A DNA stretch of 64,000 nt from Longimicrobiales bacterium (GTDB taxonomy: Bacteria > Gemmatimonadota > Gemmatimonadetes > Longimicrobiales > Gaopeijiaceae), in the NCBI GenBank assembly GCA_028278645.1, contig JANQDZ010000047.1:124001-188000 (forward strand), given 5' to 3'. The notes below the pieces were generated by a model, which was not told the DNA's origin, did no database searches, and was given only the letters and a program-made list of their open reading frames with translations. Numbering within the stretch: position 1 is the first letter of the stretch; each line of letters opens with the position of its first letter. Shown here piece by piece: positions 2,907-55,619 of the stretch. The translations under genes were made by a program, and so were the position numbers.

Positions 2907-5900
2907 ATGGAAAAGTCGAATCTGGCCCTCGCCGCTCTCCTGTTTGTGCTCCTGAATCCCCTCGCTCTCCGGCCGGTTTCCGCCCAGGCCCAACCGACGA
3001 CCAGCGACCAGCTGGCCAACCAGATCGTGGATCCGGCCCTGTTTTCGGGCATGGAATTCCGGCTCATTGGGCCCTTTCGCGGCGGTCGGTCCACGGCGGT
3101 CACAGGGATCCCGGGAAAGCCGCTGACCTTTTTCCAGGGCACCACGGGTGGGGGTATGTGGAAAACCACGGATGCGGGTGAGACCTGGGAGAATATCTCG
3201 GACGACTTCTTCGAAGTCTCCTCCATCGGCGCCGTAGAGGTGGCGGCCTCTGATCCCAATGTCGTCTACGTGGGTACCGGGTCGGCTGGGATCAGGGGGA
3301 ATGTCCAGACAGGGCGGGGTGTGTATCGATCCACCGACGGTGGGGATACCTGGGAGTTCAAGGGCCTCGCCGACGCCGGCCTCATCGGGCGCATGCGTGT
3401 CCATTCCTCCGACCCGGACCTCGTCTATGCCGCCGCCCTTGGTCATCCTTTTGGAAAGAACGAGGAGCGGGGTGTCTTTCGATCCAGGGATGGGGGGGAC
3501 AGTTGGGAGAAGGTCCTGTTCCTCAGTGACAGCGTCGGGGCCGTGGATCTGGCCATGAACCCCGAGAACCCGCGGATCCTCTACGCCGGCATGTGGCGGG
3601 CGGAACGAAAGCCATGGACTCTCATCGACGCTTCCGAGGACGGGGGGATCTACAAAACCTCGGACGGAGGGGACAGCTGGGAGAAGCTCGGCGGTGGGCT
3701 CCCGGTCGGCCTCACCGGGAGGATCGGGATTACCGTGTCGCCAGCCAACCCGGATCGGGTTTGGGCCATCGTTAATGCTCATGATCCGGACGGTGGGGTC
3801 TATCGGTCAGACGATGCGGGGGAAAGCTGGACCAAGGTGAACCGTGATCGCCGTTTGAGGCAGCGGCACTGGTACTACTCCCATATCGTGGCGGATCCGG
3901 GGGATGAGAATACCGTCTATGCCATGAACACCGGTCTCTTCCGATCCATCGACGCCGGGAGGACCTGGGAAGGAATCAGCGTCCCCCACGGGGACGTCCA
4001 GGATCTCTGGGTAAACCCGGAGAACCCTGACTTCATGGTGGTAGCGAATGACGGTGGAGCGCAGGTGAGTCTCACCGCCGGGAGGAGCTGGAGCACGCTC
4101 CTGAACCAGCCAACCGCAGAACTTTACCGCGTGACCACCGACAATCGCTTCCCGTATCGGGTTTACGCCGCGCAGCAGGACAACAGCACCATCTCCCTGC
4201 CGAGTCGGTCATCCGGTGGCCTGACGCCCTATGAGGAATGGTATGACGTAGGCGGTTGCGAGAGCGGCCATATAGCCGTCGATCCGAGGGATCCGGACAT
4301 CTACTACGCTGGCTGCTACAACGGCGTCCTGGAAAGGACGAATAAGAGGACGGGCGAGAGCCGGAACGTCATGCCCGCACCGGTGCTGGTGGACGGAGTG
4401 GCGCCGAAAGACCTGGCTGACCGGTTCCAGTGGAACTTCCCCATCGTCTTCTCTCCCCACGATCCGAATACCCTCTACACGGCCTCCCAGCGGGTCATGA
4501 AGAGCACCAACCAGGGTATGGGTTGGGAAGTCATCAGCCCCGATCTCACCACCAATGACGAGTCGAAACAACCGTTGCCCGGGGGTCCGCTACAGCACGA
4601 TCACACTTCGGTCGAAGTGTACACCACCGTGTTCGCCCTCGCCGAGTCTCCTCATACCCCTGGGGTCCTGTGGGCCGGAACCGACGACGGGAGAGTGCAC
4701 CTGTCCATGGACCACGGAGAGAGTTGGGAAGAAGTGACCCCGGAGAACCTCCCGGTGGATGGGACGGTGAACACCCTCGAGATTTCTGCCCATCAGGCTG
4801 GCCGGGTGTTTCTGGCGGTCCAACGGTACCGAATGGACGACTACCGGCCCATGGTCTTTCGGACCAACGATTACGGCCAATCCTGGGATCTTCTGACGGA
4901 CGGTGCCAACGGGATTCCGGGTGACCATCCGGTCCGCGTTGTCAGAGAAGACCCTGACCGTCGGGGCCTCCTGTACGCCGGGACGGACTTTGGTCTCTTC
5001 ATCTCCTTTGACGATGGCGAACACTGGCAGTCCTTCCGTCAAAACCTACCCGCAACCCAGGTCGCCGACCTCCAGGTGAAGGAGCAGGACCTGGTTGTAG
5101 CGACCCATGGCCGGTCCATCTGGATCATGGACGACCTGACTCCGCTCCATCAGGTATCGGATGAGATGGCGGAGGAGGATGCCGTCCTCTTCCAGCCCGG
5201 CCTCACGTACCGCCTCCAGCGGGCCGGACGGGGTGGAGGTAGAGGGATGCGGAACCCGCCCAATGGCGCTGTGATCCGATTCTACTTGGGGGAGGAACCG
5301 GAGGAGGACGTGGATGTCACGTTGAGCTTCATGGACGCATCCGGTGAGGAGATCCGGAGCTTTTCTCGAAAACCGGAAAACGACGACGGAGGGAGGCTGT
5401 CCGTCGAGGCCGGGTTCAACGACTTCGTATGGGATCTGACCCACCCGCCGCTCAAGGTGCCGGAAGGGAAGATGACGTATATGGGATATGCCGGTGGCCC
5501 TACCGTGATCCCCGGGGAGTATCAGGTGAAGCTGACAGTGGGCGACCGGAGCCAAACCGAACCGCTGACCGTCCGACAAGATCCCCGGCTCCCCCACGTC
5601 ACCAGCGCCCAATTGGTGGAGCAGCGGGACTTCGGATTCCAGATTCGGCAGAGGATATCGGAGGCCTACCAGGCTCTGGAGACCATCACTGCCGTTCGAG
5701 AGCAGTCGAAGGCCCTGGCCGAGCGTGCCGAAGAGGGTGGCTTCGGGGAGGAGCTGAAAGACCTGGCCGATTCCTTGGCGGACGCCCTGGAATCCATCGA
5801 GGTCGAGCTCTACCAGACCAAAGCCGAGTCCGGGCAGGATATGATCAATTTCCCGCCCCAGCTCTCGAACCAACTCGCCTATCTCTACGGGATGGTGGCG

Positions 5901-6152: not shown

Positions 6153-6905
6153 ATGAATCCCAAACCAGGTCCATCCCGGCGCTATTCCGACGACGAGGTC
6201 CAACGGCTCCTAAAACGGGCCGCGGAACTCGAGAGCGAAGGCCCCGCCCTCCCTGCGAAGGTGGATGGGCCGACGCTAGAAGATATTGAGTCCATCGCCT
6301 CGGAAGCCGGCATCAACCCTTCCCTGGTGCGGCAGGCCGCGACTGAGCTGGACTCCGGGTCCAGCGGCGTGACAGTCCTGGCTCCCCAGTCCTCGGCGTT
6401 GTTGGGGGCTCCCACCGTTTTTGAGTTGGAACGTGTGGTCCATGGGGAGGCGAGCCAGGCCACCCTCGAGAGTCTCGTGCCTCGCCTCCAAAGAGCTGCG
6501 GACGGAGTTGGCCACCCTTCCCTCATGGGGAAGACTCTGACCTGGCAGTCTGAGGACTCCTCCAAGACAAGGACCTTGCTGGTCACCGTGGCCGTCGGCC
6601 GCGGCCATACTCGGATCAATGTCGAGGAGAGGTATGGGAATCTGGCGGGCGCCCTCTTCGGTGGGATCGTGGGTGGGGGCGGCACAGGCCTCGGCTTTGG
6701 CGTGGGCTTCGGCGTCGGGCTGGGTGCCCTCGGCTCGGCTCTTTTTGCCACCGTTTTCCCCTTTGTAGCCCTGGGAGGGACCTGGACCCTGGCAAGGGGG
6801 ATCTACAAGCACAGTGTGCATAACCGCATGCGGAAGCTTACCAAGCTCATGAACGAGCTGGTTTCAATGGTGGAATACGGGGTGAGGGAGGACGAAGGGA
6901 GCTGA
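6153..6905 (+). CDS. Membrane protein of unnamed family, homologous to the kinase tail at 54.8-55.6 kb
   Basis: 250 residues. Three parts are visible: an N-terminal helical motif (SDDEVQRLLKRAAELES, then IASEAGINPSLVRQAATEL), a middle beta domain (GHPSLMGKTLTWQSED, then TRINVEERYG) and a Gly-rich double transmembrane hairpin around 165-215. Each part aligns in order with the C-terminal half of the Ser/Thr kinase in this window (SEEQVRQLLDRAAELQAG, VGIPPEHVRKAAEEM, GHASVLSNTLTW, TRIRVEERFE). No catalytic motif is seen. It is presumably an inner-membrane protein with the helical domain in the cytoplasm. No Shine-Dalgarno is obvious. It lies 78 bases after the beta-propeller gene. Confidence 0.75.
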   Translation: MNPKPGPSRRYSDDEVQRLLKRAAELESEGPALPAKVDGPTLEDIESIASEAGINPSLVRQAATELDSGSSGVTVLAPQSSALLGAPTVFELERVVHGEASQATLESLVPRLQRAADGVGHPSLMGKTLTWQSEDSSKTRTLLVTVAVGRGHTRINVEERYGNLAGALFGGIVGGGGTGLGFGVGFGVGLGALGSALFATVFPFVALGGTWTLARGIYKHSVHNRMRKLTKLMNELVSMVEYGVREDEGS

Positions 6906-53696: not shown

Positions 53697-53987
53697 ATGG
53701 AAATTGAAGCATTAGTCGGGATGGCTTTTGCCTTCCTGATGACGGTGACGATCGTCATCTCTCTTGGGGCGGTGATCCTTCTGAAACCTCTCATGAAGAA
53801 CCTCGGGAACTTCCTCGAGGCGAAGGCGGAGGAACGAAAGGAGTTGGGGGGGCGCTCGCCCGAAGACTGGGAGCGTTTGTTTTCCGCCCTCGATTCCCTC
53901 GGGCAAAGGATGAGCGAGTTGGAAGAACGCCAGGAATTCACTGAGAAGCTTCTCGCGAAGCCGGACAGGGAAAGAAGAGAGGACTAG
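53697..53987 (+). CDS. Small membrane protein with coiled coil, ahead of the kinase
   Basis: 96 residues from ATG 53697; the frame is open far upstream but that lies inside the divergent peptidase gene. One TM helix (AFAFLMTVTIVISLGAVILL) at about 10-30 is followed by a charged helix (LEAKAEERKELGGRSPEDWE) and a coiled coil (LDSLGQRMSELEERQEF). It ends three bases before the kinase start, so the two are probably cotranscribed. It may tether or regulate the kinase; the family is not recognised. Confidence 0.7.
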   Translation: MEIEALVGMAFAFLMTVTIVISLGAVILLKPLMKNLGNFLEAKAEERKELGGRSPEDWERLFSALDSLGQRMSELEERQEFTEKLLAKPDRERRED

Positions 53988-53990
53988 CCC

Positions 53991-55619
53991 GTGACTCCGG
54001 CCCACGGGAGAGAAACCGCGGATAACCTCGCCTCACGCTACGCCCTGGAGAAGGAGCTTGGACGGGGGGGGATGGCGACCGTGTATCTCGCCAAGGACCT
54101 CAAACACGGTCGGGAGGTGGCTGTGAAAGTCATACGCCCCGACCTGGCCGCGGCAGTAGGGCCCGAGAGGTTCCTCCGGGAGATCCAGATCACCGCCGGG
54201 CTCAATCACCCCCACCTTCTGCCTCTCCTCGATTCCGGTGCCTCGGACGGATTCCTCTATTACGTGATGCCCTACGTGGCCGGGGGTTCCCTCCGAAGGC
54301 TTTTGGAGAGCGACGCCACGATTCCCCTGGACGCCGTTCTGCGGGTCGTTGGTGAAGTCGCTTCCGCTTTGGACCATGCCCACGATCGGGGCGTGATCCA
54401 CCGGGATATCAAACCCGAGAACATCCTCTTCAACGCCGGCTTGGCGGTAATCGGGGATTTTGGCATCGCCATGGCGGTGAGTAGTGCTCCCCGTGAGAAG
54501 GTCACCCGGACGGGAGCGGCCCTGGGGACCCTCGGGTACATGAGCCCCGAACAAGCCTTGGGTACCGAAGAGCTGGACGCCCGAACCGATGTGTACAGCC
54601 TGGGCTGCGTGGCCTACGAAATGTTGACCGGGGGGACCCCCGCTTCCTGGCCCGGGCCTGAGGACGTGAAGCTAGGCCGGTTGGATAACGTTCCACCGGC
54701 CCACCGGCGCCGGTTGGACAAGTTCCCTGGCCGCATCGAACAGGTCCTGACCAAGGCTTTGGCCCTACGCCCTGATGATCGATACGCCCGGGCCGGGAAA
54801 CTGGCCCAGGCCCTGGTAGGGGCCTCTGAACGGACTCCGAGCTTTTCGGAGGAGCAGGTCCGGCAGCTTCTCGATCGAGCTGCAGAGCTTCAGGCGGGGG
54901 TGCCTGAGGACCCGGGATCCATGACCATTGGAGCCGTCGAACAGGTCGCGGCCCAGGTCGGAATCCCGCCGGAGCATGTGAGGAAGGCCGCTGAGGAAAT
55001 GCGGCCCGATGCGACCGCGGTCCGGCATCATCGACGAACCCCGGGAGGGCAGACCGTGGACCGGGGTGCCGTGTCCCAGGAGCCGGTGGGCCTGTGGAGA
55101 CGGTCTCCGGAGGAGAAGTGGGACAGGATCGTTCTGGATTCCCACATCGATGGCGAGATCCCCGACGAAGCTTTTTCAGTGATGGTCGACGAGATTCAGG
55201 ACACGCTCGGCATCATCGGCCATGCCTCCGTACTCTCGAACACTCTCACTTGGAGTCCGGCGACCCAGGGTGACGATAGCCGGCGAGTAGTTGTTTCGGT
55301 GAAGGCCAAAGATGGAAGGACCCGCATCCGTGTGGAGGAGCGCTTCGAAATCCGAAGCTTCCGCCGCGCGTTTGTAGCGGCGGGCGGCCTCTCCGGTGCG
55401 GTCTTCGCAGCGGCCATGGCTGCTTTTTTGGGGATCGCCGACCAAGCCATGCCAGCTCTTCTGATCCCCGCCATGGGCTTAGGGGTCGTTGGAGGGGTGG
55501 TGGGCACCATCAGATTCGAAGCGAACACCAGAAGACCTCAACTCGAGGCACTCTCCGGGCGACTGATGGAAATGGCTGAGAGGGTGATCCGGAGGCTGCC
55601 TGGCCCCGCGGAGGAATAA
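53991..55619 (+). CDS. Hanks-type Ser/Thr protein kinase with unnamed C-terminal membrane domain
   Basis: 542 residues, GTG start eight bases after GAGG. Kinase domain, about 17-265: Gly loop LGRGGMATVYLAK, Lys in VAVKVI, catalytic loop HRDIKPENILF, GDFGIAMA, GTLGYMSPEQ. After a helical link comes the same three-part tail as the protein at 6153-6905: SEEQVRQLLDRAAELQAG with VGIPPEHVRKAAEEM, then GHASVLSNTLTW with TRIRVEERFE, then two TM helices near 460-510 (AAMAAFLGI and ALLIPAMGLGVVGGVVG). PASTA sensor repeats are absent. All catalytic residues are present, so it should be active. Confidence 0.92.
   Translation: MTPAHGRETADNLASRYALEKELGRGGMATVYLAKDLKHGREVAVKVIRPDLAAAVGPERFLREIQITAGLNHPHLLPLLDSGASDGFLYYVMPYVAGGSLRRLLESDATIPLDAVLRVVGEVASALDHAHDRGVIHRDIKPENILFNAGLAVIGDFGIAMAVSSAPREKVTRTGAALGTLGYMSPEQALGTEELDARTDVYSLGCVAYEMLTGGTPASWPGPEDVKLGRLDNVPPAHRRRLDKFPGRIEQVLTKALALRPDDRYARAGKLAQALVGASERTPSFSEEQVRQLLDRAAELQAGVPEDPGSMTIGAVEQVAAQVGIPPEHVRKAAEEMRPDATAVRHHRRTPGGQTVDRGAVSQEPVGLWRRSPEEKWDRIVLDSHIDGEIPDEAFSVMVDEIQDTLGIIGHASVLSNTLTWSPATQGDDSRRVVVSVKAKDGRTRIRVEERFEIRSFRRAFVAAGGLSGAVFAAAMAAFLGIADQAMPALLIPAMGLGVVGGVVGTIRFEANTRRPQLEALSGRLMEMAERVIRRLPGPAEE

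Follow-up and report, generated by a model that had tools for sequence, protein, structure and literature searches.

An unnamed membrane module of Gemmatimonadota that occurs alone and as the tail of a Ser/Thr kinase

In the AMPK-related kinases, UBA and KA1 regions help to inhibit the kinase and bind acidic lipids (PMC4686854, PMC6451319), and KA1 itself binds anionic phospholipids and autoinhibits (PMC6451319). Among bacteria, the PASTA-type kinases (PknB, Stk1) have a Hanks-type kinase domain that is followed by a membrane segment. The kinase P0002, encoded in the window (the whole stretch of 64,000 nucleotides of Gemmatimonadota DNA analysed here), shares that order, and its kinase domain reaches 270 bits on the PknB_PASTA model; unlike the PASTA kinases, it lacks PASTA repeats outside the cytoplasm, and its two predicted transmembrane (TM) helices lead the chain back inside. 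Its tail has a relative in the same window, the free protein P0001. The features are as follows.

6153..6905, + strand: P0001, free module protein, 250 aa (open reading frame)
6177..6353, + strand: P0001 helical N domain (residues 9-67), three predicted helices (AlphaFold2 helices 13-29, 42-51 and 56-67)
6402..6638, + strand: P0001 alpha/beta domain (residues 84-162), a strand, a helix and four strands (AlphaFold2, high confidence)
6639..6800, + strand: P0001 TM hairpin, first helix glycine-rich, LAGALFGGIVGGGGTG (hydropathy, uncharged stretches in 42 members, model helices)
6801..6902, + strand: P0001 basic C-terminal helix, predicted cytoplasmic (surplus of K/R behind TM2 in almost every member)
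53697..53987, + strand: small protein with one TM helix and a coiled coil, 96 aa, ERQEFTEKLL near its end (stop 3 bases before the kinase start)
53991..55619, + strand: P0002, Ser/Thr protein kinase with module tail, 542 aa (open reading frame; PF00069, 4.3e-47)
54039..54785, + strand: P0002 kinase domain, residues 17-265 (Pfam; motifs GRGGMATV, AVK, HRDIKPEN, DFG and SPE)
54843..55592, + strand: P0002 module tail, residues 285-534 (BLASTP 3e-18; hhalign 3e-57)

The free protein and the kinase tail

A sequence-only reading had placed two genes at 6153-6905 and 53991-55619, where the open reading frames were indeed found, and had described three blocks in the same order in P0001 and at the end of the kinase. 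The full-length BLASTP match agrees with this description (70.5 bits, E 3e-18, 27% identity between P0001 residues 11-245 and kinase residues 285-534), and an alignment of P0001 orthologues matched an alignment of ten kinase tails over 233 columns (hhalign probability 100%, E 3.3e-57). Searching the window's own genome with P0001 alone recovered the kinase tail in two pieces (4.8e-11 and 1.1e-4), together with six further free copies; A23, G53, A62 and W131 (P0001 numbering) are the residues kept outside the membrane among the eight paralogues. Because conserved non-membrane residues carry much of the match, it reflects homology and no accidental resemblance between TM helices. On these alignments, P0001 and the kinase tail are one homologous module, either free or fused to a kinase.

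P0002 is predicted to be a Hanks-type Ser/Thr kinase with intact motifs: PF00069 scored 161 bits against a cut-off of 31.7, and the P-loop, AVK, HRD and DFG motifs are present. With the PASTA kinase model NF033483, its score lies under the 450-bit cut-off, PASTA repeats gave no Pfam match in P0002, and the predicted hairpin returns inside. The tail runs from a helical N domain through an alpha/beta domain and a TM hairpin (about 55368-55520) to a C-terminal helix.

The AlphaFold2 model of P0001, built from 42 aligned sequences, has a mean pLDDT of 82.8. The alpha/beta part consists of a strand (89-97), a helix (102-115) and strands 120-125, 128-134, 141-149 and 152-160, and the same elements appeared when this domain was modelled alone (pLDDT 87.2); the membrane and C-terminal part comprises helices 162-178 and 181-192 and a long helix, 196-249. 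In P0001, the alpha/beta domain bears the motifs GHPS..GKTLTW and TRINVEER. It is the best-conserved soluble part of the module, with near-invariant G, E, W, G and T among 42 members, across phyla and in free proteins that lack an enzyme. The helical domain shows the pattern A-x3-G-I-x4-V-x2-A in most of 36 members and is acidic (mean net charge -2.7). P0001 orthologues share 85% and 71% identity with it in two genomes of the same genus and about 40-47% in other genera.

The most conserved parts of the whole module are the hairpin and its TM1, which is usually glycine-rich (LAGGLFGGIMGGGGGG), a run that the window's kinase has lost. Where the earlier reading saw a double TM hairpin, the shared layout holds, but the membrane part amounts to a single hairpin with two TM helices: members have two uncharged TM stretches joined by a very short loop and then a basic stretch with a mean net charge of +3.4. 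Nearly all members have this basic stretch after TM2, which by the topology rule should place both ends in the cytoplasm; the soluble parts of the module are probably cytoplasmic as well. The three-block unit also needs qualification, as the helical block can be separated from the sheet-plus-hairpin block. Six loci keep the latter without the helical domain: two kinases (L063 and L070) and four Myxococcota proteins (L069, L071, L072 and L077), in which a coiled coil replaces the kinase and the helices at the N-terminus.

Distribution and history of the fused and free forms

No significant match to the module was obtained in Pfam, NCBIfam, PHROGs or PDB sequences, in line with the earlier impression of a shared membrane module outside any named family. 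The fold search also returned nothing significant (best E 5e-3 to 7e-3, TM-score 0.57 at most); its weak matches include START/SRPBCC, PR-10, KA1, YwmB and RnlA chains, with the START-like 3put at rank 1. A literature search, with most subscription journals outside its coverage, yielded no account of the module or of KA1-like bacterial tails.

The window's genome (4.9 Mb, 103 contigs) holds eight module copies, namely P0001, the kinase and six other free copies with 22-27% identity to P0001. One of these (L006/L144, C94:1016-1720) has an in-frame TAG, marking either a pseudogene or a sequence error; a further weak match in this genome (L010) was discarded as a spurious hit to an iron-sulphur protein. 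Among 200 sampled Gemmatimonadota genomes at least 90% complete, 110 contain the module (42-row profile, E 1e-15), with up to nine copies per genome. In Myxococcota, 10 of the 146 sampled genomes do (same profile, E 1e-10), and none of 11 matches examined there was fused to a kinase. All named matches came from Gemmatimonadota, Myxococcota or uncultured metagenome-assembled genomes (MAGs). Two MAGs with matches (L045 and L051) are titled Gammaproteobacteria; the genome of the former gives a hit whose contig and coordinates are identical to those of G100, which is placed in the window's family, so at least this title is probably wrong. Plasmids and viral contigs gave no match, and a phage or plasmid origin of the module was rejected on this result. 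At one locus (L021, G004:C179), a free module continues in frame into a cupin-like C-terminal region.

Across genomes, the module is often fused to a kinase and still more often free, in keeping with the two forms described in the earlier reading. Kinase fusions account for 16 to 18 of 40 named loci, the upper count including two loci with a partial kinase match (L053 and L055). A survey of 90 genomes at E 1e-20 gave 73 matches, 26 of which (in 16 genomes) are kinase-fused; each fusion was checked by kinase-domain alignment, since in GC-rich DNA a long open frame is no proof of a fusion (frames of 895, 782 and 536 codons in G006, G087 and G070 contain no kinase). Dozens of kinases from several families have their parts in the same order: kinase, helical domain, alpha/beta domain and hairpin. 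At three loci (L114, L117 and L123, in three genomes of two families), two tail-kinase genes lie one behind the other and overlap at their ends.

In a tree of 133 modules, made by a quick method and containing long branches, the kinase/free label changes 4 times, compared with 41 in shuffles. Of the 52 fused tails, 51 group with ten free ones in one region; the outlier (L195) is a long branch of unsure placement. The few label changes suggest that kinase fusion was an old and rare event, with a few later losses and no free exchange between the two states. Such a loss of the kinase may explain the four coiled-coil proteins from Myxococcota, whose modules group with the kinase tails. P0001 and its orthologues lie within a clade of 37 rows that is free throughout. 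P0001 is thus no loose half of the kinase, and the tree rejects its recent break-off from one.

Gene neighbourhoods

P0001 is flanked on one side by a VPS10/BNR protein and on the other by an ECF sigma factor and a mechanosensitive-channel-like protein. The VPS10/BNR gene lies upstream of P0001 within the genus and also beside one fused kinase (L053); with 73 family matches in the window's genome, in some 20 or more ORFs, VPS10/BNR genes are so numerous that chance is the likely cause, and the protein was dropped as a candidate partner. An all-against-all comparison of flanks revealed no conserved neighbours of the module beyond the genus.

The small protein at 53697-53987 precedes the kinase gene in the sister species as well (L147). 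On contig C78 (L141), a relative is encoded about 300 bases downstream of the free copy; the sister species has relatives close to the corresponding copies, and another lies just downstream of a free copy on C421 of G001. The coordinates are 6541-6819 at L141, 4974-5267 at L147 and 5030-5323 at L148, with ER.[DE]FTEKLL near the end. Two of the four genomic copies of the family adjoin module genes (chance about 1e-4 under independent placement), and these two adjacencies could stem from one duplicated pair. Elsewhere the neighbours vary and are mostly unrelated; the family is generic to Gemmatimonadota and has no clear match in Pfam. With its one TM helix and coiled coil, the protein presumably resembles PspB-like proteins, and no match to Pfam PspB was detected. 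From gene order, it is a candidate partner of the kinase in one operon, in this genus only. Two other kinases of the window's genome, on C25 and C74 (L135 and L138), share another kind of membrane tail at the C-terminus, marked by the motif WFHGEKG; it looks like a second unnamed kinase tail.

A proposed membrane-tethered module and its likeness to known kinase tails

Our overall explanation, which we favour while giving it somewhat less than even confidence, is a membrane-tethered regulatory module of Gemmatimonadota and some Myxococcota that is either free or C-terminal to a Hanks-type kinase. The predicted chain leads from a three-helix domain to a domain of five strands and one helix, then through a short TM hairpin back to the cytoplasm and into a basic helix. 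The tail would hold the catalytic domain at the inner membrane face without an extracytoplasmic sensor, and of all parts of the proposal this tethering is the one in which we have strong confidence. The helical and alpha/beta domains would act in cis on the kinase; the hairpin, often glycine-rich, could form dimers or pack against small TM partners, and this packing would report the state of the membrane or gather kinases for trans-autophosphorylation. Such a cis-regulatory, membrane-reporting role is a working guess, held a little more loosely than the overall explanation. Free P0001-type proteins would be an old separate branch that keeps the sensor or scaffold without the enzyme.

The tail might instead only fix and oligomerize the kinase in the membrane, its soluble domains being folded spacers. 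The conservation of the hairpin and glycine-rich TM1 and the dispensable helical domain fit such a plain anchor, and since six members lack the helical domain, cis-regulation by that part is not universal. However, free proteins would have nothing to anchor, and in the alpha/beta domain, G, E, W and T positions stay nearly invariant across phyla and in these enzyme-less proteins; as the best-conserved soluble part, this domain does more than fill space. We regard a plain anchor as unlikely, though worth keeping in mind. The sequence-only reading put forward another possibility, in which the free protein would be a separate partner or substrate that meets the kinase by way of the module they have in common; this fared less well. 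The two proteins do have a homologous module in the same membrane, and among the 90 genomes about 17 have a P0001-type protein, 16 a fused kinase and 6 both (Fisher p 0.07). Yet they belong to separate old paralogous clades, their genes are 48 kb apart with no shared neighbourhood in relatives, and 11 of the about 17 P0001-type genomes have no detected tail-bearing kinase; an obligatory pair would show better co-occurrence, though detection limits may hide some kinases. The separate clades and the frequent occurrence without a detected fused kinase weaken the idea to the point where we find it improbable, although P0001-type proteins may partner with other kinases or do so in the genomes that have both.

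Two further readings turn on single domains. The alpha/beta domain could be a cut-down START/SRPBCC helix-grip that binds a lipid or ligand at the membrane and signals to the kinase, as would be suggested by its order of strand, helix and strands and by the weak fold matches, many of them START/SRPBCC or PR-10 chains, with 3put at their head. With about 80 residues and five strands it is, however, smaller than the matched chains of 140-170 residues, no START/SRPBCC family matched in Pfam and the best START/SRPBCC fold match had E 7e-3 and a TM-score of 0.38; we rate this reading marginally below a partnership. If the helical domain were a helix-turn-helix (HTH), the module could be a membrane-tethered DNA-binding protein. 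An HTH-like A-x3-G-x5-V-x2-A signature occurs in most of the 36 members, and Sigma70_r3 and other HTH families in Pfam (E 0.05-0.2) and RpoD chains in the PDB search gave weak matches, but none exceeded the cut-off (best E about 0.05), and the signature lies in an acidic domain that is placed between kinase and membrane when fused, which makes DNA binding very improbable.

For the membrane-tethered regulatory module that we favour, regulation throughout the tail-kinase group would come from the membrane or the cytoplasm and not from an outside ligand. On sequence grounds, it should be a common unnamed signalling family whose members are free or pin a Ser/Thr kinase to the inner membrane face: it is present in more than half of the sampled Gemmatimonadota genomes, forms the tail of a whole group of Ser/Thr kinases and is nameless in the databases searched. 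One of its closest parallels lies in AMPK-related kinases such as MARK/PAR-1 and SAD/BRSK, in which, as in the module kinase, a kinase domain is followed by a three-helix domain and a membrane-associating alpha/beta domain. KA1 chains of CIPK, SOS2, SAD, AMPK and Chk1 are among the top 50 fold matches, all weak (E 0.04-0.12; TM-score by query length 0.49 for CIPK, 0.48 for SOS2 and 0.42 for SAD). In contrast to the UBA-KA1 tails, the bacterial tail has no Pfam match to either domain, whether among 25 of the 26 families listed for the 42 members (E 0.1) or for ten kinase tails (E 10), and TM-scores are only 0.37-0.49; it has an integral TM hairpin, whereas KA1 is a peripheral lipid binder. The likeness may indicate a way in which the tail works, not family membership. 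At its strongest, the analogy describes a UBA-KA1-like bacterial tail, evolved separately or shared, in which the three-helix and KA1-like domains would keep the kinase inactive and let it go only in response to the membrane's state, with a hairpin as anchor and free copies as enzyme-less membrane regulators. We consider this full form rather unlikely; the module tail nonetheless offers a testable bacterial parallel to eukaryotic kinase tails.
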